From a virus, in the IMG/VR virus record IMGVR_UViG_3300020188_000049, positions 1 to 24,960 of that record: a DNA stretch of 24,960 bases, one strand, 5' to 3'. Positions 3,498-20,696 of the stretch are shown here, piece by piece. The translations under genes were made by a program, and so were the position numbers. Positions within the stretch are counted from its first letter, which is position 1, and each line of letters opens with the position of its first letter. The notes below the pieces were generated by a model. That model was not told the origin of the DNA, did not search any database, and saw nothing but the letters and a program-made list of their open reading frames with translations.

Positions 3498-6400
3498 TAG
3501 ATCCTATTTCCCCTTACCCTCTGCGAATCAACGCGTTTAATCTGTTTCATTACGACTCTAGCAATTCTGTCTGGGTCTGCATCAGACTTGACGTTAACTG
3601 CCAAGTTATAATTATACACCGAACCGCCAGAGTATGTTCCATTATTTATAGCTTCTAGGTTTTTGGTTCCAAAATCTTGCACTGCACGTTTACGGACTAC
3701 ATACTCTCCTGGGCTTAGCATAGCTGGAACATTGTCTGATCCCATGGAGGTGAACATTCCCCCTACGGAATAGCCCTTTACATTTCCGCCAATGCTATAT
3801 CCTGGAACCGAGCCACCTTGGTTATAATAAATTTTTTGTCCACCAACAGTGATGAACCTCTTGGTGGTGGTTGTCTTCTTGGGAGCCAAGTTTTTAAACT
3901 TGTTGTCTGAACTATCGGTCTTTGGTTTTGGTGCTGAACTCTTTGAAGGAATAGGAGTCGTTCTGCTGCTTGTAGAGCTTGAAGATGACTTTTGCTTGTT
4001 CAATGCTGCGGCCTGACCACCAGAAGGAGTTGATGATTTTGGCGTTAAGTTAGCACCTGCGGATGTTGCTACTGCCTTAAGTGCCCACGACTTTGTATAT
4101 GCCGCATCGGCTTTTTGCTTAACCATGGCATCAACGATGCTCTTATTTCCTGGCATGCTGCTGCCACTAAGTGCTTCTATAGTCTTATTAGCAGAGGCAA
4201 TATCTTTATTGGCCTGAACAACCGTTGGGTCTTTGGTCTCTGCTTCACGAAGTGCCTCCAAAACTGTTTTTGATCCCCCAGAGCCATTATCACTCTTAGT
4301 TGGGGTTGGAGTAGGGGCTGGAGTTGGCTTTTGAGGACCGTAGTCGACCCTATCTCCGCTAACGACCCCAGTATCAACTAGCTCTTGAATTTCGTCTGCC
4401 CCAAACAAAGATGCATCCAAGTCTTTTCCATTGACAAAATATTCGAACAATGCTAGTGCTTGCTGAATCTTCTTATTAAAGTCATCCATATTTACAGAAG
4501 CTAGGTCTACTGCATTTGCAATCTGATCCCACTCATCTCTGGTCTTGCCAGCAATTTCCAAACCTTCAATGTCTAGATTCTTTTGGTATTCTGCCAACCT
4601 AATGCGTTCTTGGGCTGGCTCTAGCTGCCCCTCTTCAATTGTAAAAATTTCATCTTGCTTGTTTTTGATTGCAGACTCAATCTCTTCTCTGGATTGACCA
4701 GAAGCAGACCTAAGCCTTGCAATTTCTGCAGCCTGCTGCTTTTCTAGCATCTCTCTTTCGGTTTGTGCACGATTTTCTGCTTCCGTAGCCCTAAGCTGTT
4801 GCTGTGCTCTAGCCGCTGCTGCAATGTCACCACGAGAAAGTGCATCTGCAATGTCTAGCTCTGCAGATCTAATTCTAGAAATACGCTCATTAGCTGCGGC
4901 CACCTGCTCTAATGCTTCATACCTATCATTGTACTTGTCGTTAATAACCTCTTCTTGGTCTTGAATGCCTTTGAGCTGTGCCTGATAGTCATCAATTTCA
5001 TACTGAATTGCTGCAATTTGTTGCTGTGCTTGGCTAACAATGTCTGAGTCTCCACTAGTTGCTGCCTTAAAATCAAGTTCTATTTCAGTTGCTTGCCTAT
5101 TAAACTGAGTCTGAATGTCTCCCATTAGGCTATCGAATAGGCCCTTCTTTCCTTCTTCAGTTGATACTGAAATCTGCAGCTCTAGATCAGCAGCTGCCTT
5201 AGCTTGCTGAAGTGCCCTGGAAAGCTCTGTTGGGCTAATTGATGGATTTAGGTATAGCTTTGTCAGATTAGGGTCATTCATAATCGCACTAATTTGCTCA
5301 TCGCTATACTTGCCCTGCTCAGAGGCTAGCTTTCTAATTGCTCTTGCACGCTCCATAAACTGATCATTGGTTCTCTTTAAAGCTTCAGCAGCTTGCTTTT
5401 CTTCAGACAGCCTGTCTGACTTTTCCTGTAGCCTATTGAGACGCTCAATAATGTCAATAATTTCTTCGACTTCTTCTTTGGTCGCTGCCATTGCAATAGC
5501 CGTAGCAATTGCCTGATCCTGAACTAGTTCGTAGGCATCCACAAATGATAGCCCAGCTGCAGTAAGCATTTGCATTGCAGTAAACTGATTCTTAGTATTT
5601 TCAATAAATGCTTGCTGAGAATTGATGTATTCTCCAATAGCAACCTTGTTCATAGCTAGACCAAGATTATTTAGCTTTTCAGTTACCCCGACAATGTTGC
5701 CATTCTTATCAAATACAAATAGCTCATCCTTGCGTTCTGCATATTCATCTGGATCCATTCCGACAATACGCTCAATTAGGTTTTCGCCAACGCCGATGGA
5801 TCGCATTTGATTAGCCAAACCACTAAATCCATTAATGCCAGAGTCTAGGAATTCTTTGATTGACTGGTTCATTCCGTCCCAGCCCTTACGCATACTGATA
5901 GTAGCCTGTCTTACATCCCTTATCTTTTTAAGAAGGCTATCTAGCTGTGGAGCAGCACCAGCACCAGTTCCTTCTCCCTCTCCCTCTCCTGAGGGGTCAT
6001 TGGTATCTGTGGTTACTGGCATAGTTTGACCAAGGTTCCAGACTGCAGCTGCTGTACCATACTTAGACATATCAGCTGATGACGGGGCATTTGTAGTAAC
6101 AGTTCTACCCCTACGACTTCTAGAACGCGTGCCAGTCATAGCGATTCCCTGATCTGCCATATATGCTCGAACTAGGTCTGGGTCCGCTTGTGATGTTCTA
6201 GTAATAAAGTCAATTACAAACTGCCTGCTAACATTATCTGTTAGGTTTAGGTCTTCCCAATTATCTAGTAGCTTGGTAAGGTTTGCGTCGCCTGCAGCAG
6301 TTTCAATAAATGCTTCTTTGGTAATTACGTCTGGCAAGCCTTGGTATTTTCCAATAATTTCAGCAACCTCTTGTAGCTGCTCTTCACCATTAGTTGATAG

Positions 6401-9400: not shown

Positions 9401-11218
9401 TTCTATTTGCTGTTGAGTCATATACTCTGTAGAAAGCCCAAGCCCCTTGCTTTGACCAGTTATCCTTTGATAAAATATGCCAAGGTTGGCGAACATCTTA
9501 ATTAGGTTTGCTACACCGTTAGCTAACAAACCAAATGACATCAGGGCTACTGGACCAATAGCACCAAGAACGGCTGCCATAACTACAACGAACTGTTTGG
9601 CACCATCGCCCATTTCGTTAAACTTATTAAGAATTTTAGTTCCAAACTCAACCAGCGGGGTAACTGCTTTGAGGAATGCCTCTCCCAAAGGTGCCAGGGT
9701 TGCTTTGAAGTCTTCTAGGCTCTTATTAAACTTATAAGCTACAGAGTCTTCAACCCTGCTCATTTCTCGATCTGCTAGAATGCCAAGCTCTTGCACTGAA
9801 TTACCAGTTAGCTGTAGCACCTTGTTTGCTTGGCTTCCACTATCTACAATGTTGTTAAACATTGTGGACATTCTCGCAAACTGGAACTTACCGAACAACT
9901 GTTCGATAGCTCTTGATTTTTGTAGTGGGTCTAGTGTATCTAGAGCTTGGGCAAGAGCCATTACTGTTCCGCGTAGATTGCCAGCATTTGCTTCTACAAT
10001 ACCAACAACATCAATTCCAAGATTTGCCAGCCTCTTCCTTGCCTCTTCAGTCGGATTAATTAAGCGACCGAGGGACGACTTCAGGGCGTTAGCACCTTGG
10101 CTAGCCGAGATGCCTCCTTCTCGCATGGCGGTCAGGAAGAAGGCGAGGTCTTCTACGTCTCCACCCAAAGCTTTAACAACAGAACCAGCTTTTGGAATAG
10201 CTTCGTTAAAGTCTTCAATGGATAGGATGGTTTGGTTTTCTGCAGCATTTAGAAAGTTAACTTTATCTGCCAGCTCATCTACAGAAACACCAAAAGCATT
10301 AGTTAGCGAGATTGTGGTGTCTAGTGCTTCTTCCTGCTCCAATCCGCCCAAAACAGAAAGCCTTGTAGCCTGACGAACCTGAGCATCTAGGGCATCACCC
10401 ATGTTTCCCATCTGGGCTACCCTAGCTGCCAAGCCAACCGTCTTTTCTACGGCAATGCCATACTTAGTAAACTCTGAGGCCAGCTCTCTAACATTTTCTA
10501 GTGCTCTTTCAGTTTGACCAGTAGTAGTGAACATGTCACCATAGACACGTCTAAACTTAATAGCTTGCTCTTCTAGCTTTTGGAATTCTCTAGCAGCAGC
10601 AGTACCAAAAATTGCTAGTGGAATTGTAAAACCAACCATAAGCTGTCTACCAGCCCACTGGGTGTTCTTACCAAAGTTTAGAAGATTTGTAGAACCTTGC
10701 TTTAGTACCTGGTTGAATAGCTGCTGCTTTTGAGCAGCCATCATAGTTCTTGTAGACAAGCTCTCCATGTCAAGGGCGAGTGGTCTTACTTTAATTGCTT
10801 GCAGTGCACCATTAGCATCTCTACCCATGCTAATGTATTGTGTTTGTAGGTCTTTTACTCTTTCAGTTGCAACACGATTAATTGTGTCAAACTCTCTGGT
10901 AAAAAGCTTTCCGAAAGTCTTAGTGGATGCCCCAGCGTACTTGAAGTACTGGCCCATTGAGAATTTATTTCTCTCAAGGGAGTTTGTAAAGCTCTCGGTG
11001 CTGGAGCTGATCTGAGTCATTCTGGCAGAAAACTTGCCAGTCTCATTAATATTATTTATAAGCCCCTGACGCATTCGCAGGGACTCGGCGGCGACGTTAG
11101 CACCGCCCTTTGCCATGAGAGTGTGGAAGACTGATATCTCTCGCTGCAGCTGTCGAATAGCTGCGAGGGCTTGGGTAGTATCAATACCTATGCCAATATT
11201 GGCCTGAGCATCAGCCAT
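3497..11218 (-). CDS. Tail tape-measure protein (TP901 core type), 2573 aa
   Basis: This protein sets tail length and helps DNA passage. I start it at the ATG at 11218, seven bases after AAGGAG (11226-11231); a TTG six bases upstream is too close to that site. Residues about 190-460 match the TP901 tape-measure core in style (EFQKLEEQAIKFRRVYGD, later MREGGISASQGANALKSSLG). Hydrophobic stretches lie near 540-578 and 1116-1180, and a Lys/Ala-rich linker near 1000-1045. Long coiled coils occupy about 1910-1980 and 2060-2230, followed by a Ser/Thr/Lys/Pro-rich linker. The Gly-rich C-terminus carries VPAMLSPGEYVV near 2490, and a near-copy VPAMLSPGEAVI sits near 678. It follows the chaperone genes and precedes tail-tip genes, as expected. 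The length is far above phage lambda's tape measure (853 aa). Confidence 0.95.
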   Translation of the reverse strand: MADAQANIGIGIDTTQALAAIRQLQREISVFHTLMAKGGANVAAESLRMRQGLINNINETGKFSARMTQISSSTESFTNSLERNKFSMGQYFKYAGASTKTFGKLFTREFDTINRVATERVKDLQTQYISMGRDANGALQAIKVRPLALDMESLSTRTMMAAQKQQLFNQVLKQGSTNLLNFGKNTQWAGRQLMVGFTIPLAIFGTAAAREFQKLEEQAIKFRRVYGDMFTTTGQTERALENVRELASEFTKYGIAVEKTVGLAARVAQMGNMGDALDAQVRQATRLSVLGGLEQEEALDTTISLTNAFGVSVDELADKVNFLNAAENQTILSIEDFNEAIPKAGSVVKALGGDVEDLAFFLTAMREGGISASQGANALKSSLGRLINPTEEARKRLANLGIDVVGIVEANAGNLRGTVMALAQALDTLDPLQKSRAIEQLFGKFQFARMSTMFNNIVDSGSQANKVLQLTGNSVQELGILADREMSRVEDSVAYKFNKSLEDFKATLAPLGEAFLKAVTPLVEFGTKILNKFNEMGDGAKQFVVVMAAVLGAIGPVALMSFGLLANGVANLIKMFANLGIFYQRITGQSKGLGLSTEYMTQQQIEAAAVASSLNQSHATLIQTFSAEATAVDRLTAAYSRAVAAQRTFQGSAVARGGAGGTKKYAAGVVSVPGPRGAGDVVPAMLSPGEAVIPADMAKRYAPVINQMISGKIPGYEQGLKAEETKATTTRGQRPATPARVAGYTNAVMYLPGRENLRLNSGGADVKDLRSALGYQGANKPMAAGSAAAQAPMVDSIARALGKTSNSKQIAQQIQNNPEFKKFANNVNKGIAQALPKSGKIADPQFQKIATAAIDKELKTGGYSKEFQKAGRGVLTQQTMFQDPTNKRIRSNGKLDLQGRGQVRAGVPGYRRNYTSAITALGGKAQAFVGQHLSHMTGSKQLDLSKVSNLSKEASDAKARLKSGVDRVTYKDTEGNKRSVTVKRGSSVAEVQAKIAKSGGTLVKETDKAAKETKKAAAATKKETAAKTKNAKAVEKATNAVAAKKPGQVVSTVDKNGNVRFYQDGKRITNEKGTAAVKRSEAAQKAAQTRAANKASAPASPAAKPDAAGAAAKSRLGLGGMAAIASVGAMAASFAPGKVGEVAQQLILPLMMLPTILPLLKNPIVLAIAAVAALGVGIFMLHKKLKDATKSGIDAGQALSMTADKLKSISEVTGTVSATELRQQQQQAQLTASGPEFNSFGLGFVQDSEQGKAMLADIEKQFTSGSSVEQVGENMGRQLAMAITQGAVSVDQARSIAVALGTELGDYTLSTNISGKLTELLGVDGNDLTQNPLEVAIRIKEDSIQEQVDIFENALSVISDNSEKVGGWQNLPFVNMFAVPIEFFNRTKENKEVTAAAVQLGVEQLSQNQMLLDSVNQRYDMLVAQATTEEEINRLQAERRTAIQEINEANAETTAQILEQAKAFDDIGLYQDAMAESIRQRYSEGPMKVFSEEALKQLAEVDNQDFAMTLSLQMATGELSPISVLKLIEVGENNESFQVSFETSMKTQGSAQTNQLMTLLTQNNVSNNAFPVMFDFVVNSGGEFDNMLEALGVISSLGTRYGFEFDLSTNGEEQLQEVAEIIGKYQGLPDVITKEAFIETAAGDANLTKLLDNWEDLNLTDNVSRQFVIDFITRTSQADPDLVRAYMADQGIAMTGTRSRSRRGRTVTTNAPSSADMSKYGTAAAVWNLGQTMPVTTDTNDPSGEGEGEGTGAGAAPQLDSLLKKIRDVRQATISMRKGWDGMNQSIKEFLDSGINGFSGLANQMRSIGVGENLIERIVGMDPDEYAERKDELFVFDKNGNIVGVTEKLNNLGLAMNKVAIGEYINSQQAFIENTKNQFTAMQMLTAAGLSFVDAYELVQDQAIATAIAMAATKEEVEEIIDIIERLNRLQEKSDRLSEEKQAAEALKRTNDQFMERARAIRKLASEQGKYSDEQISAIMNDPNLTKLYLNPSISPTELSRALQQAKAAADLELQISVSTEEGKKGLFDSLMGDIQTQFNRQATEIELDFKAATSGDSDIVSQAQQQIAAIQYEIDDYQAQLKGIQDQEEVINDKYNDRYEALEQVAAANERISRIRSAELDIADALSRGDIAAAARAQQQLRATEAENRAQTEREMLEKQQAAEIARLRSASGQSREEIESAIKNKQDEIFTIEEGQLEPAQERIRLAEYQKNLDIEGLEIAGKTRDEWDQIANAVDLASVNMDDFNKKIQQALALFEYFVNGKDLDASLFGADEIQELVDTGVVSGDRVDYGPQKPTPAPTPTPTKSDNGSGGSKTVLEALREAETKDPTVVQANKDIASANKTIEALSGSSMPGNKSIVDAMVKQKADAAYTKSWALKAVATSAGANLTPKSSTPSGGQAAALNKQKSSSSSTSSRTTPIPSKSSAPKPKTDSSDNKFKNLAPKKTTTTKRFITVGGQKIYYNQGGSVPGYSIGGNVKGYSVGGMFTSMGSDNVPAMLSPGEYVVRKRAVQDFGTKNLEAINNGTYSGGSVYNYNLAVNVKSDADPDRIARVVMKQIKRVDSQRVRGNRI

Positions 11219-11240: not shown

Positions 11241-11552
11241 CTAGTTCATAAGATTGGCGACTTCACCAAGCTTTACGCCCGAAGCCTCCTCGACAATTTT
11301 ATAGACAGTGGGGAGATCAATATTCTCTTCCAATGCCTTGACATCTTTTGCTAGCTCAGGGTTGTATTGCTGCATGGCAATTTGAACACATTCCATGAGT
11401 AGGTTCATAGACTTGTCGTTGTCATTCGCTACGTTAGCAATACCCTCAAACTTTTTCATAAATGGACGAAGCAGTGAAATCTTTAGGGGACGCACACTAA
11501 TCTTTGTTCCATCAATGAGAGTAAGTTCCTTCTCTTCATTTACAGTAGCCAT
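11241..11552 (-). CDS. Short tail-assembly chaperone (G-type, N-domain only)
   Basis: 103 aa, ATG at 11552 with AAGGA five bases upstream. It lies immediately before the tape-measure gene, where tail-assembly chaperones sit. It aligns over its whole length with the first ~95 residues of the 231-aa gene just upstream: IDGTKISVRPLKISLLRPFMKKFE against VDGTEIYIKPLKIKYL-type sequence, and IDLPTVYKIVEEASGVKL against VDMPNVYKILDLAAGIKI. It is thus a diverged paralogue lacking the C-terminal domain. In lambda-like phages the short (G) and long (GT) forms come from one gene by -1 frameshifting; here two genes encode the two sizes. Only 22 bases separate its stop from the tape-measure start, so no frameshifted T domain can follow. 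It has its own promoter-like sequence upstream. Confidence 0.8.
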   Translation of the reverse strand: MATVNEEKELTLIDGTKISVRPLKISLLRPFMKKFEGIANVANDNDKSMNLLMECVQIAMQQYNPELAKDVKALEENIDLPTVYKIVEEASGVKLGEVANLMN

Positions 11553-11557
11553 TTATT

Positions 11558-11595
11558 TCCTTCCATATACGTATATAAACGGTATCTCAATTATA
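11558..11595 (-). promoter_or_regulatory. Promoter and leader of the short chaperone gene
   Basis: An extended -10 element, TGT followed by TATAAT (hexamer at 11590-11595), lies in the 56-base gap between the chaperone genes; I see no convincing -35. The predicted leader is about 30 bases and ends in the AAGGA site at 11558-11562. Between them sits a 12-base perfect palindrome. The promoter would boost the short chaperone and tape measure relative to the long chaperone. Confidence 0.5.
11565..11576. repeat. 12-base perfect palindrome in chaperone leader
   Basis: ATATACGTATAT reads the same on both strands and lies between the predicted transcription start and the ribosome binding site of the short chaperone gene. 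It could be an operator half-site pair or a small RNA hairpin, or chance in an AT-rich leader. I do not recognise a known binding site. Confidence 0.35.
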
Positions 11596-11608
11596 ACACA
11601 ATGCAATA

Positions 11609-12304
11609 CTATTTTTTGGTTAAATCCTCGTAGCCTAGGCCCATTCCCAAGCCAAATCCAGCCTGTGCGGCCTTCGTACCCTGGAAGGATGTAATGTCAT
11701 TTGGATCGGAAGTTTTGCCCTTGCTGAATACTCTAGCTTTCATGGCCTCCCATTCGTTCTGTGAGGCCTTTCCAGATTGCTTATCTAAATCTACCCCCTG
11801 AATTGCAGCTAAGAATTTCTTTTCTTGATAGTCTAAATCTCTTTTAGAAGATAATGTTGCAACTAATTCTGGCATAGATAATGATGTTTCTAGATCTTCG
11901 TAGTCTTTCCAAATGCCCAATAAAAATAACTCTGCCTCTAGCTCAGCTAGGTCTAGCTCATCCCAGGTGCTAGCCTTACTATCTTCTGCTTGTTTTTTAA
12001 CAGAATCCTCTGATTTTTCATTAATTTTAATTCCTGCAGCAAGATCTAAAATTTTATAAACGTTTGGCATATCTACTTGATCTTCGAACTCTTCGATTGT
12101 TTGTATTAGAGGGTACTGTGATTTAAGAGCTATCATTGCACAGTATGAAAGAATATTTATAGAGTCTTCATCGTTTTTAGAAATGTCCAACAGTTCAAAG
12201 GCGGACATGAACTCCCTCAGGTATTTTATCTTTAGTGGCTTTATATATATTTCTGTGCCGTCAACGAGTTTAATATACCCCGCATCGTAAACTGTAGTTG
12301 CCAT
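11609..12304 (-). CDS. Long tail-assembly chaperone (fused G+T type)
   Basis: 231 aa. Residues 1-95 form a small domain shared with the 103-aa gene that follows. After an acidic Lys/Glu/Ser linker (about 96-115), residues about 116-180 form a helical second domain (WDELDLAELEAELFLLGIWK, then SMPELVATLSSKRDLDYQEK) with a Gly-rich tail. This two-domain form corresponds to the GT fusion chaperone of other siphoviruses, which binds the tape measure and recruits tail-tube subunits. Here it is encoded in one frame without a shift. It lies between the tail-tube and tape-measure genes, the canonical position. Its ATG at 12304 is only six bases after a -10 element and has no Shine-Dalgarno, so the message is probably leaderless. 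The gene ends in six A residues directly before TAG. Confidence 0.82.
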   Translation of the reverse strand: MATTVYDAGYIKLVDGTEIYIKPLKIKYLREFMSAFELLDISKNDEDSINILSYCAMIALKSQYPLIQTIEEFEDQVDMPNVYKILDLAAGIKINEKSEDSVKKQAEDSKASTWDELDLAELEAELFLLGIWKDYEDLETSLSMPELVATLSSKRDLDYQEKKFLAAIQGVDLDKQSGKASQNEWEAMKARVFSKGKTSDPNDITSFQGTKAAQAGFGLGMGLGYEDLTKK

Positions 12305-12319
12305 CTAATAAGTATACCA
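12305..12319 (-). promoter_or_regulatory. Leaderless extended -10 promoter for the long chaperone
   Basis: TGGTATACT, an extended -10 element (hexamer at 12311-12316), ends six bases before the ATG at 12304. With usual spacing, transcription would begin at or next to the start codon. No purine-rich ribosome binding site is present. The same nine bases occur before the small gene that precedes the portal. It directly follows the tail-tube terminator, so it restarts transcription. Confidence 0.6.
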
Positions 12320-12360
12320 AAAGAGTAAAGCCCAGGAGTAAATATCTCCTGGGCTTTACT
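12317..12360 (-). terminator. Intrinsic terminator after the tail-tube gene
   Basis: A perfect 15-base-pair stem, AGTAAAGCCCAGGAG pairing with CTCCTGGGCTTTACT (12346-12360 with 12324-12338), closes a seven-base loop. It begins 11 bases after the tail-tube stop. The descending arm contains TTTACT and runs on into CTTTT, giving a short T-rich tail. The stem is symmetrical, so it could also act on the other strand. It would end most of the tail-tube message and insulate the chaperone promoter. Confidence 0.8.
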
Positions 12361-12371
12361 TTGGATTAAAC

Positions 12372-13007
12372 CTAGCTGGAAAGTCCGCCAGCTGGAATAA
12401 TGCGGTCTACAATCTTACCATAAGATGCTACGTCGTTTGGCAGAAGACGGAAGGAGACCTCGAACATCGAAGGCTCGTCACGCTTTGCAGAAACGGTAAC
12501 ATTCTCAATGGAAAGAGCACGGTATGCAACGTAGACACGTTCGATCTCGTCACCAATTGCACAGTCACCAGTACCAGGACCAACTGCAACCAAACCACGC
12601 TCGACGGGGCACTCACCAATGTCACCAGCGGACATGTTTAGAGTGTCGTTTCCGTCTACAGAAGTTAGGTCTGAGTCAGTACCAGCAATAGCGAACAATA
12701 GGTTTTCGAGTGTGGCCTCGGCAAATGCGGTGTTTAGGTTAACCTGCATGCCCTGCTTATAAAGCTTGGCTACGTCAAGAACCTGGTCTACCTGTACTTC
12801 ACCGAAGTCTGGCTGGAATACAACTTCCAAACCATTCATCGTGTATCCAACATTACGGAATGACGAGGTATCGCTTAGAGTGTCTCTAAATGATACGTTG
12901 TCAACGTAATCTGGAAGGTCTACATCACTAAGCTCACCCTGTTCGTATGTGAACAGAGCTGCAGCACCAACGATAATGTTAGCACTTGTACCACGTGTGT
13001 ATGCCAT
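12372..13007 (-). CDS. Major tail tube protein
   Basis: 211 aa, a normal size for a siphovirus tail-tube subunit, which polymerises into hexameric rings around the tape measure. The protein is rich in beta-strand, Val, Asp and Gly, with a typical C-terminal strand pattern (VSAKRDEPSMFEVSFRLLPN near residues 173-192) and no membrane or coiled-coil segments. The ATG at 13007 has GAGGTGA six bases upstream, one of the strongest ribosome binding sites in the window. It has its own promoter-like sequence and is followed by a strong terminator, fitting very high expression. It lies between the tail-terminator gene and the chaperones, the canonical order. I identify it by order, size and regulation more than by a named motif. 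Confidence 0.85.
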   Translation of the reverse strand: MAYTRGTSANIIVGAAALFTYEQGELSDVDLPDYVDNVSFRDTLSDTSSFRNVGYTMNGLEVVFQPDFGEVQVDQVLDVAKLYKQGMQVNLNTAFAEATLENLLFAIAGTDSDLTSVDGNDTLNMSAGDIGECPVERGLVAVGPGTGDCAIGDEIERVYVAYRALSIENVTVSAKRDEPSMFEVSFRLLPNDVASYGKIVDRIIPAGGLSS

Positions 13008-18659: not shown

Positions 18660-20300
18660 TTAACTAGATGATCTTCCCTCTCCCTGTGCATTTCTGCCAG
18701 AGATAGTTGCTGGGCTATCAGACTGATTGTTTGCTCTCTCGGCATCTCTCTGTCTGTTACCTGCTGAGTTTGCCCTTGCGTCAGTTGCCTGTCTTGGGGA
18801 CATTACAAATGGGTCATCGCCATCTGGTCTTTGCGGCAATCCCAATGCTTCTCTTGCCTCATTAGGAACCATAATCTGGTTCTTAACGTAACGCTCAAGA
18901 ATTTGCGACTGTGCAATTTCATCTGTTAGAGTTAGCTCATTAAACTTAAACTCTAAGACATCTGTTTCTTCTTTAATGATTTTGTTAATCATCTTAGCTA
19001 GGTTATTTTGTGCTGGTCTAGATACCTGCTCTTTAAATGTCCTATCCTGAGATAGAGCATTAGCGATAGAGGTTGTATCCCCGCCACCAATTTTTGATAG
19101 CGGAACTTGGTGAGCAATCAGAATGTCGTCTCGGTTTTGTTTACGATACTCTTTGAATGATGCCTCCTGAACTCCATTTTCAATTGGCTCCATCTTAAAC
19201 TCTACCTTGCTATTATCGCTATCTCCAGGTAGTGGGATATATAGAGTGCGGTGGTTCTGCCCCTTAAGGCTGCTCTGCAAGAACCTAAACATCTTGTCTT
19301 CTGCGTCAGCTGACAGCTGTGCCCCCTTAAGAGTTACTACATATCGTGGGACACCCTTGTTTCCAAAGTAGTCAATGTTGTACTGAGATGCTAGCTGATC
19401 TCCGTGAAGCGATGTAATAGCAGACATGATATCTGGTACACCATAAAATGTATTTAGTGGTGAGTATTCTTTATAGTGAACAATTTCATTAGGCCTTGGG
19501 TCAGTTGTAATTGGGTTCTTGTTCGTTGCCCCGAAGTTTCGGAAGTAAACAACCTTGTTGCCAATAATCTGGACATAGCCATCTCGAAGTCTACGAGCAC
19601 GCATTGTCGTTGCTGGAATGTGTCCAATATAACCAATCTTGCCCTTAGTAGTTCTACCAATTTCAAGATAGCCATTTCCAGTTGCCTGCACATCTGTGTA
19701 AAACTTAGTCAAGGTGTGGGTAAAAGACTCTTCGTCATTTAAGTTTTCAAGCCAGTCTCGCATCTCGATCTTTAGTCGTTCAATTCTGTTTCTTGCTCTT
19801 TCTACTGCAGCCTTATCTCCATTAGACTCTAGCCTTGCCATTGTTCTTGGAGAAATTTCAAGGTCGTAGCCCAGGCCCACAATATTTTCAACCTTGGCAT
19901 CGATAGCTGCGTGGTTAGCAAAAGAAGTGTCGTAGTAGTTAGCAAGCTCATATAGATTCCAGGGAGGTGTAATTACGTCAAACATGCCGTAGCCATTACG
20001 GAAGACCTGCCCTGGATTAATTTCTTTAGACTTTGCATCATCTAGGCCAGATGCCACAGCAAGAGCACTGCTCATGTATTGCTGGCTGGGGTCGTTTGCC
20101 AGAGAGTTGTCTGTTCTTGTCTCGTAGCCGTACGCCATATTTTTGGCAAGCCTAGTAGCCCTACGCTTAAAGTTTGTGTCTAAACCATTGAGGCCTTTAA
20201 TATCGTCCCACGATTTGTTAAATGGGTCCTGGTTTTTAAAAACATCTGGTGTGTCCACAATGTCATCGATTCGGGCTCCCACTGTCCACTGCTCTGCCAT
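18660..20300 (-). CDS. Portal protein
   Basis: 546 aa, a normal size for a portal, the dodecameric ring through which DNA enters and leaves the head. The ATG overlaps the previous stop (TAATG) and has GGAG plus GAGGGA upstream. The sequence has the features of PBSX/HK97-type portals. PPWNLYELANYYDTSFANHA leads into AIDAKVENIVGLGY near residues 113-146, and GNGYLEIGR and HIPATTMRARR follow near 215-240. Then come NEIVHYKEYSPLNTFYGVPD, NIDYFGNKGVPRYVV and, near 400, ILIAHQVPLSKIGGG with the basic/aromatic stretch before it. The last ~50 residues are Asn/Arg/Ser-rich and probably disordered. It is followed by protease and capsid genes in the usual order. Confidence 0.93.
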   Translation of the reverse strand: MAEQWTVGARIDDIVDTPDVFKNQDPFNKSWDDIKGLNGLDTNFKRRATRLAKNMAYGYETRTDNSLANDPSQQYMSSALAVASGLDDAKSKEINPGQVFRNGYGMFDVITPPWNLYELANYYDTSFANHAAIDAKVENIVGLGYDLEISPRTMARLESNGDKAAVERARNRIERLKIEMRDWLENLNDEESFTHTLTKFYTDVQATGNGYLEIGRTTKGKIGYIGHIPATTMRARRLRDGYVQIIGNKVVYFRNFGATNKNPITTDPRPNEIVHYKEYSPLNTFYGVPDIMSAITSLHGDQLASQYNIDYFGNKGVPRYVVTLKGAQLSADAEDKMFRFLQSSLKGQNHRTLYIPLPGDSDNSKVEFKMEPIENGVQEASFKEYRKQNRDDILIAHQVPLSKIGGGDTTSIANALSQDRTFKEQVSRPAQNNLAKMINKIIKEETDVLEFKFNELTLTDEIAQSQILERYVKNQIMVPNEAREALGLPQRPDGDDPFVMSPRQATDARANSAGNRQRDAERANNQSDSPATISGRNAQGEGRSSS

Positions 20301-20680
20301 TATCCCTCGTCTCCGTAAGCTTCTAGAGTATTCTTAGCTGCAATAACTGCACCAAGGTCATTCATGCTTGGAATAAGGCCCTGATTCATTCTGTCAAGCT
20401 GCTCGCTGTGCTCTTCTTCAGAGATCTTACGCATGTTTGGGTAGAACTTTGCGGTTCCTTCTGGGCACCCCCAATATCTAGCAGCATTTTCTAGTTCTTG
20501 AACTCTAGTAAGGTCGCCCTTCATGGCTTCGATAGACAGGGCATTTCCATTTCCGTCAGTAAATGCTTTTCCGTTGGCCTTGTGCCATACGTAAGTTCCA
20601 AAATTAGAGAAGTTTTCTTCTATAACCTGGACCTTCGTGTCACCGACTTGACCAGGAAAGCGTGGTTTTTTGTTTTCCAT
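20300..20680 (-). CDS. Small protein of unknown function before the portal
   Basis: 126 aa from the ATG at 20680; a GTG six bases upstream is possible but lies one base from the -10 element. It ends in a TAATG overlap with the portal gene. The protein is hydrophilic, with an N-terminal basic stretch (MENKKPRFPGQVGDTKVQVI), an aromatic middle (NFGTYVWHKANGKAF) and a charged C-terminal helix pair. Two features stand out: a Trp-Gly-Cys-Pro segment (AARYWGCPEGTAKFYP) with a single cysteine, and the absence of any terminase or nuclease motif. Coupling to the portal suggests a packaging or portal-assembly accessory. I do not recognise the family, and it is too short and unlike a small terminase for that name. 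Confidence 0.75.
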   Translation of the reverse strand: MENKKPRFPGQVGDTKVQVIEENFSNFGTYVWHKANGKAFTDGNGNALSIEAMKGDLTRVQELENAARYWGCPEGTAKFYPNMRKISEEEHSEQLDRMNQGLIPSMNDLGAVIAAKNTLEAYGDEG

Positions 20681-20696
20681 AGCCACTAGTATACCA
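20681..20696 (-). promoter_or_regulatory. Leaderless extended -10 promoter before the portal unit
   Basis: TGGTATACT (hexamer at 20688-20693) ends seven bases before the ATG at 20680, in an 18-base gap. It is the same nine-base sequence that precedes the long chaperone gene. No Shine-Dalgarno is visible between it and the ATG. It would start a message at the first codon of the unknown gene and read into the portal gene. Confidence 0.58.

Follow-up and report, generated by a model that had tools for sequence, protein, structure and literature searches.

A tail assembly chaperone pair in a relative of Stanwilliamsviridae: probable replacement of a programmed frameshift by two separately started genes

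Few recoding events in tailed phages are as widely conserved as the G/GT frameshift, which is usually explained as a device that fixes the ratio of two tail chaperones. How, then, are the two chaperones supplied in a virus whose long chaperone gene carries both of its domains in one frame, and whose short chaperone has a gene of its own? Such a locus is found in the window analysed here, that is, the whole stretch of 24,960 nucleotides of the IMG/VR record IMGVR_UViG_3300020188_000049. We consider it likely that this pair represents the G and GT chaperones of a long-tailed relative of Stanwilliamsviridae, which are expressed from two promoters and whose frameshift was lost via duplication. The conserved start signals of the two separate genes now probably set the amount of each protein.

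The gene pair and its identity

The structural genes of the window form a compact array on one strand, and the pair lies within it with the major tail protein gene upstream and the tape measure gene downstream, as in annotated Streptomyces phages. The genes and domains concerned, named after their proposed roles, are the following.

12372..13007, minus strand: major tail protein gene (PHROG 2175, 5.5e-30; PHROG 885 major tail protein, 6e-4)
11609..12304, minus strand: GT, the longer of the two chaperone genes (231 aa), in which the N and T domains share a frame
12014..12304, minus strand: N (G-like) domain of the long gene, residues 1-97 (BLASTP)
11609..11968, minus strand: T domain of the long gene, from about residue 113 to the stop (PHROG 10474)
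11241..11552, minus strand: G, the short tail assembly chaperone gene, 103 aa
3497..11218, minus strand: tape measure protein gene, about 2573 aa from the ATG at 11218 (by its position in annotated Streptomyces phages)

The initial annotation had described the 103-aa protein as a paralogue of the first domain of the 231-aa protein, and the long gene as carrying the second domain in frame. Both descriptions hold. BLASTP aligns residues 3-97 of the 103 in the short protein with residues 4-96 of the 231 in the long one, with 38% identity and 67% positives over 95 aa (E 7e-23). In profile comparison both proteins match PHROG 10504, which corresponds to the N domain; PHROG 10474, which corresponds to the T domain, is matched by the long protein alone, at residues 131-200. 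The T domain of the long gene has its homologue in the T ORF that Streptomyces phages carry in the -1 frame. Both chaperones presumably have the tape measure protein as their client, and the T domain the major tail protein. At about 2570 aa in the window, compared with roughly 2100 aa in the Streptomyces relatives, the tape measure protein is large, and a very long tail is therefore to be expected.

What marks the two products as probable tail assembly chaperones? In addition to their position between the major tail protein and tape measure genes, they comprise a short and a long product with a common N-terminal domain, and the homologous genes of Streptomyces phages are annotated as tail assembly chaperones. 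The chaperone families of PHROG gave weak matches from single members. AlphaFold2 models of moderate confidence (pLDDT 72.7 and 72.2) show for both proteins an N-domain made of two strands followed by helices, and the order of elements, E-E-H-H-H-H, is common to them. In BFVD, the model of the long protein matched by fold an entry named 'Tail assembly chaperone' at E 3e-4 and one named 'tape measure chaperone frameshift protein' at E 0.024, and two unnamed entries were closer to it than the named ones. Nothing in the PDB matched the folds of the models at E <= 0.001, and its sequences yielded no match in a profile search either. The Pfam family PF12322 (T4_baseplate) matched weakly (8e-4) one of 81 N-domain relatives and neither protein of the window. 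We infer that the pair would function in tail assembly.

Two arrangements among relatives and the direction of change

A tblastn search of 50,697 phage records with either protein found 127 Streptomyces phage records only, with one place in each; where the family is given in these records, it is Stanwilliamsviridae. Six of these Streptomyces phages were examined, and in every one T has an ORF apart from that of G, shifted to the -1 frame. Two scans of bacterial genomes, which sought a host or prophage, found no relative. Judging from its relatedness to the Streptomyces phages, the window's virus may have an actinobacterial host. The records of three Streptomyces phages, Anedea, Faust and EGole (L002, L003 and L004), give the T frame as a separate hypothetical protein or as a 20-codon fragment; in these phages that frame is nevertheless the -1 continuation of G, and the records carry no annotation of the frameshift product.

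Four scans of environmental viral contigs yielded at least 320 loci, which are best-first matches and not prevalences, and a six-frame search was carried out on all 328 sequences. Among the matches listed, at least 183 loci, the window included, have a fused in-frame GT followed by a short G, and about 80 of the 183 are distinct below 92% identity. At least 137 loci (134 complete, 3 cut by the contig end) have a single G with T always in the -1 frame; they come from Streptomyces phages, Stanwilliamsviridae where classified, and from environmental viruses. Six further loci show GT without G, apparently because the contig breaks off shortly after the GT match. Since the same order recurs in at least 183 loci, the arrangement of GT and then G does not come from chance, and the inverted order that had been pointed out for the window, with the long gene before the short one in transcription, is the rule of the whole group. 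Sequencing error as a cause of the fusion was also considered, and it is ruled out by the same in-frame gene in these 183 or more loci. In one locus of this group, L064, a 0.7-kb insert lies between GT (4001-4693) and G (5473-5799); the insert carries a reading frame that looks like a methyltransferase when read by eye, and behind it the short G keeps its own -10 and Shine-Dalgarno.

Recoding signals divide the two groups. An in-phase slippery heptamer of the form XXXYYYZ lies in the overlap of G and T in 42 of 52 frameshift representatives, mostly as CCCAAAC, CCCAAAT or CCCAAAA and in two of them as GGGAAAC, and the other ten, all Streptomyces phages or their close kin, have CCCGGAA. The lambda type, with T in another frame and a slippery site, is not what the window shows: its T is in frame with N. 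A slippery heptamer is absent from the GT linker in 69 of 80 GT+G representatives, and the linker of the window has none. A frameshift within the long gene that would yield the short product was also considered as a candidate, and was rejected, no in-phase heptamer being conserved in the linker. Each GT+G locus has only one T-like segment, so that there is no second T for the short gene to shift into.

Two observations may be added on these genes. Six frameshift viruses (L299-L301, L303, L304 and L324) have a single G of the short type together with the heptamer GGGAAAC, seemingly at the codon pair where others have CCCAAAY, which might be a replacement or a re-evolution of the slippery site. 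Start codons are TTG or GTG in 36 of 50 single G genes of frameshift viruses, and ATG in nearly all GT and short G genes.

In which direction did the change go? The GT+G viruses form one clade both in a tree of T (support 81/87) and in a tree of the major tail protein together with T (93/85, and 94% of bootstrap trees), with supports of 81/87 and 93/85 that lie below the strict threshold. If the root is assumed on the side of the Streptomyces phages, this clade is nested among frameshift viruses, and therefore the frameshift is most simply the ancestral state. On these trees, a single switch away from frameshifting is most likely, and the proposal of the initial annotation that a duplicate has taken the place of a programmed frameshift gains support from the frameshift relatives that surround a two-gene clade. 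It could be argued instead that two genes are the original state, or that they evolved repeatedly, and that frameshift viruses such as L299 and L324 are reversions. A quick tree of T indeed placed these two inside the GT+G clade, and their heptamer GGGAAAC differs from the usual CCCAAAY. However, that placement was not repeated in the careful trees, which put both viruses outside the clade and need a single change of state; when the translations are inspected, their heptamer stands at the same codon pair as CCCAAAY, and other frameshift viruses surround the clade. We therefore regard an ancestral or repeated split with reversion as unlikely, and a single loss of the frameshift as the better account.

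The N-domains themselves may record how the two copies came about. In their tree, the long copies form one clade (100/98), and the long copies, the short copies and the single G of three short-type frameshift viruses (L284, L299 and L324) together form another (100/97). A constrained tree that keeps the long and short copies together was not rejected (p-AU 0.627), and its likelihood was even higher. Mean pairwise identity is 0.53 for the long N-domain, 0.70 for the short protein and 0.68 for T. These results fit one duplication near the base of the GT+G clade, which may have been followed by faster change of the long N-domain, although the exact branching of the long N-domain is unsure because of its long branch. 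Pairwise dN/dS has medians of 0.097 for the long N-domain, 0.043 for T and 0.053 for the short G, and these low values mean that all three are kept by purifying selection.

Might the short paralogue nevertheless have taken up a new role, no longer as gpG, and left tail assembly to the long protein alone? The two N-domains of the window are only 38% identical, and the copies fall into separate clades. Yet it is the short copy that has been the more conserved (0.70 against 0.53 for the long N-domain), that keeps the ancestral leader and adjoins the tape measure gene, and that groups with the single G of the frameshift viruses L299 and L324. A new role for it seems very improbable to us, and we continue to treat the short gene as G.

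Start signals and the balance of the two proteins

If no frameshift sets the two products apart, their amounts could be governed by signals in front of each gene. The following were located in the window.

12324..12360, minus strand: intrinsic terminator after the major tail protein gene (AGTAAAGCCCAGGAGATATTTACTCCTGGGCTTTACT, then CTTTTGG)
12311..12319, minus strand: predicted extended -10 of the GT gene, TGGTATACT, ending 6 nt before the ATG
11590..11598, minus strand: extended -10 of the short gene, TGTTATAAT, 37 nt before the ATG
11559..11564, minus strand: Shine-Dalgarno of the short gene, GGAAGG

The evidence for these promoters is conservation across loci. An extended -10 was scored as a match of at least 5/6 plus TG, with dinucleotide shuffles as background. 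The promoter-like sequence that the initial annotation had noticed before each gene proved to be conserved: an extended -10 stands before GT in 66 of 78 representatives (4.9% in shuffles) and before the short gene in 79 of 80, compared with about 5-6% in shuffles for the pair. A generic sigma-70 promoter scan of the window listed neither of the two chaperone promoters, because they have no -35 match.

The two signals differ in kind. Among 70 loci with an extended -10 of GT, the spacing to the ATG is 6 nt in 54 and 9 nt in 11, and a Shine-Dalgarno motif is absent before GT in 75 of 78 representatives. With the -10 hexamer at -12 to -7, the predicted +1 falls on the A of the GT ATG, and the GT mRNA is therefore predicted to be leaderless. 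A -10 at 6-7 nt before the start and no Shine-Dalgarno are the marks of leaderless genes of the actinobacterial type, and GT has both. The -10 of the short gene is mostly 23-37 nt before the ATG, and an SD-like motif precedes essentially every one of the 80 short genes, 54 of which have GGAGG and 1 no more than GGA. The -10 is perfect, TGNTATAAT, or TATAAT with TG, in 76 of 80 short genes vs 13 of 78 GT genes (Fisher p 7e-26).

Within the window, GT is the sole structural gene with a -10 at 6 nt and no Shine-Dalgarno, with the possible exception of a 128-aa gene (20300-20686, minus strand); there TGGTATACT stands 7 nt ahead of an ATG that lies two codons inside the ORF, and this gene too may be leaderless. 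Upstream of 15995 (minus strand), before a 115-aa gene that follows the major capsid gene, TGGTATAAT and an AGGAGG Shine-Dalgarno are arranged like the leader of the short chaperone gene, which makes another likely promoter in the structural array.

A terminator hairpin with a T-run lies upstream of GT in 76 of 78 GT+G loci, with 57 different 5' arms, and under a stricter hairpin rule in 73 of 78, compared with 1.3% of shuffles. Frameshift loci have a hairpin before G in 47 of 49 cases, and the leader of their G is built like that of the short gene: terminator, -10, 24-28 nt, SD. Between GT and G, a terminator is found in only 1 of 78 loci.

How could such an arrangement have come about and work? 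In the ancestor, GT would have been made from one gene via -1 ribosomal frameshifting. In one descendant clade G would have been duplicated, one copy being joined in frame to T, and this GT copy would have come to lie downstream of the terminator of the major-tail-protein transcript and upstream of the old promoter of G. GT would then be transcribed from its own extended -10 abutting the ATG, as a leaderless mRNA. G would be transcribed from its consensus extended -10 and also by read-through from GT, which is suggested by the lack of a terminator between the genes, and would be translated from its Shine-Dalgarno. G should exceed GT, because its -10 is the stronger by consensus, because it may receive read-through from GT, and because it has a Shine-Dalgarno. 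On the lambda model, the tape measure protein would be covered by a large number of G and a small number of GT molecules, and the major tail protein would be brought in by the T domain.

We lean towards the view that duplication replaced the frameshift and that the G:GT ratio is held by a leaderless, off-consensus GT on one side and a G with a consensus promoter and a Shine-Dalgarno on the other. The ends of the transcripts and the relative output of G and GT are what we infer from these signals. Transcription would then set the ratio, as had been suggested for the window, and translation initiation may share in setting it. Leaderless mRNAs in actinobacteria are not necessarily poorly translated, and a weak output of GT is therefore an assumption. 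By analogy, findings from Mycobacterium tuberculosis may apply to these viruses: there, a TGN-extended -10 raises promoter activity, and a quarter of the genes are leaderless (PMC3898074).

It might also be supposed that the separate chaperone genes share one operon transcript, in which the -10 boxes are of minor importance and translation alone sets the ratio, through the missing Shine-Dalgarno of GT and the strong one of G. For such an operon speak the compact same-strand array of the window's other structural genes and a Shine-Dalgarno contrast that is as strong as the promoter contrast. But in 76 of 78 loci the major tail protein gene is cut off from GT by an intrinsic terminator, an extended -10 at a constant 6 nt from the ATG makes little sense unless transcription starts there, and in L064 both the promoter and the Shine-Dalgarno of G are intact despite the 0.7-kb insert. 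A single operon transcript is thus an improbable solution, and we prefer two promoters.

Comparison with known systems

The nearest systems are those of the Stanwilliamsviridae Streptomyces phages such as Faust, EGole, Mildred21 and Stanimal. They are like the window in the homology of N and T, in gene position, and in the succession of terminator, -10 and SD in the leader before G. Unlike the window, they have a single G whose overlap with T, read in the -1 frame, carries CCCAAAY or CCCGGAA, and they have neither a fused gene nor a second copy of G.

In lambda, gpG outnumbers gpGT by 30:1; together they cover the tape measure protein, to which T draws the major tail protein (PMC5009743). The window resembles lambda in having short and long products with a common N-domain, the excess of the short one being presumed here, and differs from it in having two genes and no frameshift; this likeness is one of architecture.

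A clade without the frameshift, together with near relatives that have it, raises a question: is it the ratio or the frameshift itself that is under selection? We predict that a pair of promoters, combined with two ways of starting translation, is able to fix the ratio. If this is true, the sister frameshift viruses offer a natural before-and-after comparison. Gene finders and frameshift predictors should also expect both architectures within one virus family.

The two-gene solution has a precedent, which the initial annotation did not mention. In some T4-like phages, according to the authors of PRFect, a short chaperone gene and a long fusion gene replace the frameshift (PMC10885494). On that account the window is like the T4-like phages in having a separate short gene and a separate long fusion gene with no frameshift, and this kind of two-gene system is therefore already known. 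The work that the PRFect authors cite for the T4-like chaperone genes is that of Vladimirov, Gautam and Davidson in Virology 566:9, from 2022. The present viruses belong to a different group from the T4-like phages, and in their case the frameshift relatives, the promoters and the predicted leaderless start are visible. What appears to be new, as far as the literature was searched, is a large clade of related viruses of this kind, for which frameshift relatives give the change a direction and in which both the promoters and the translation starts are conserved and asymmetric.
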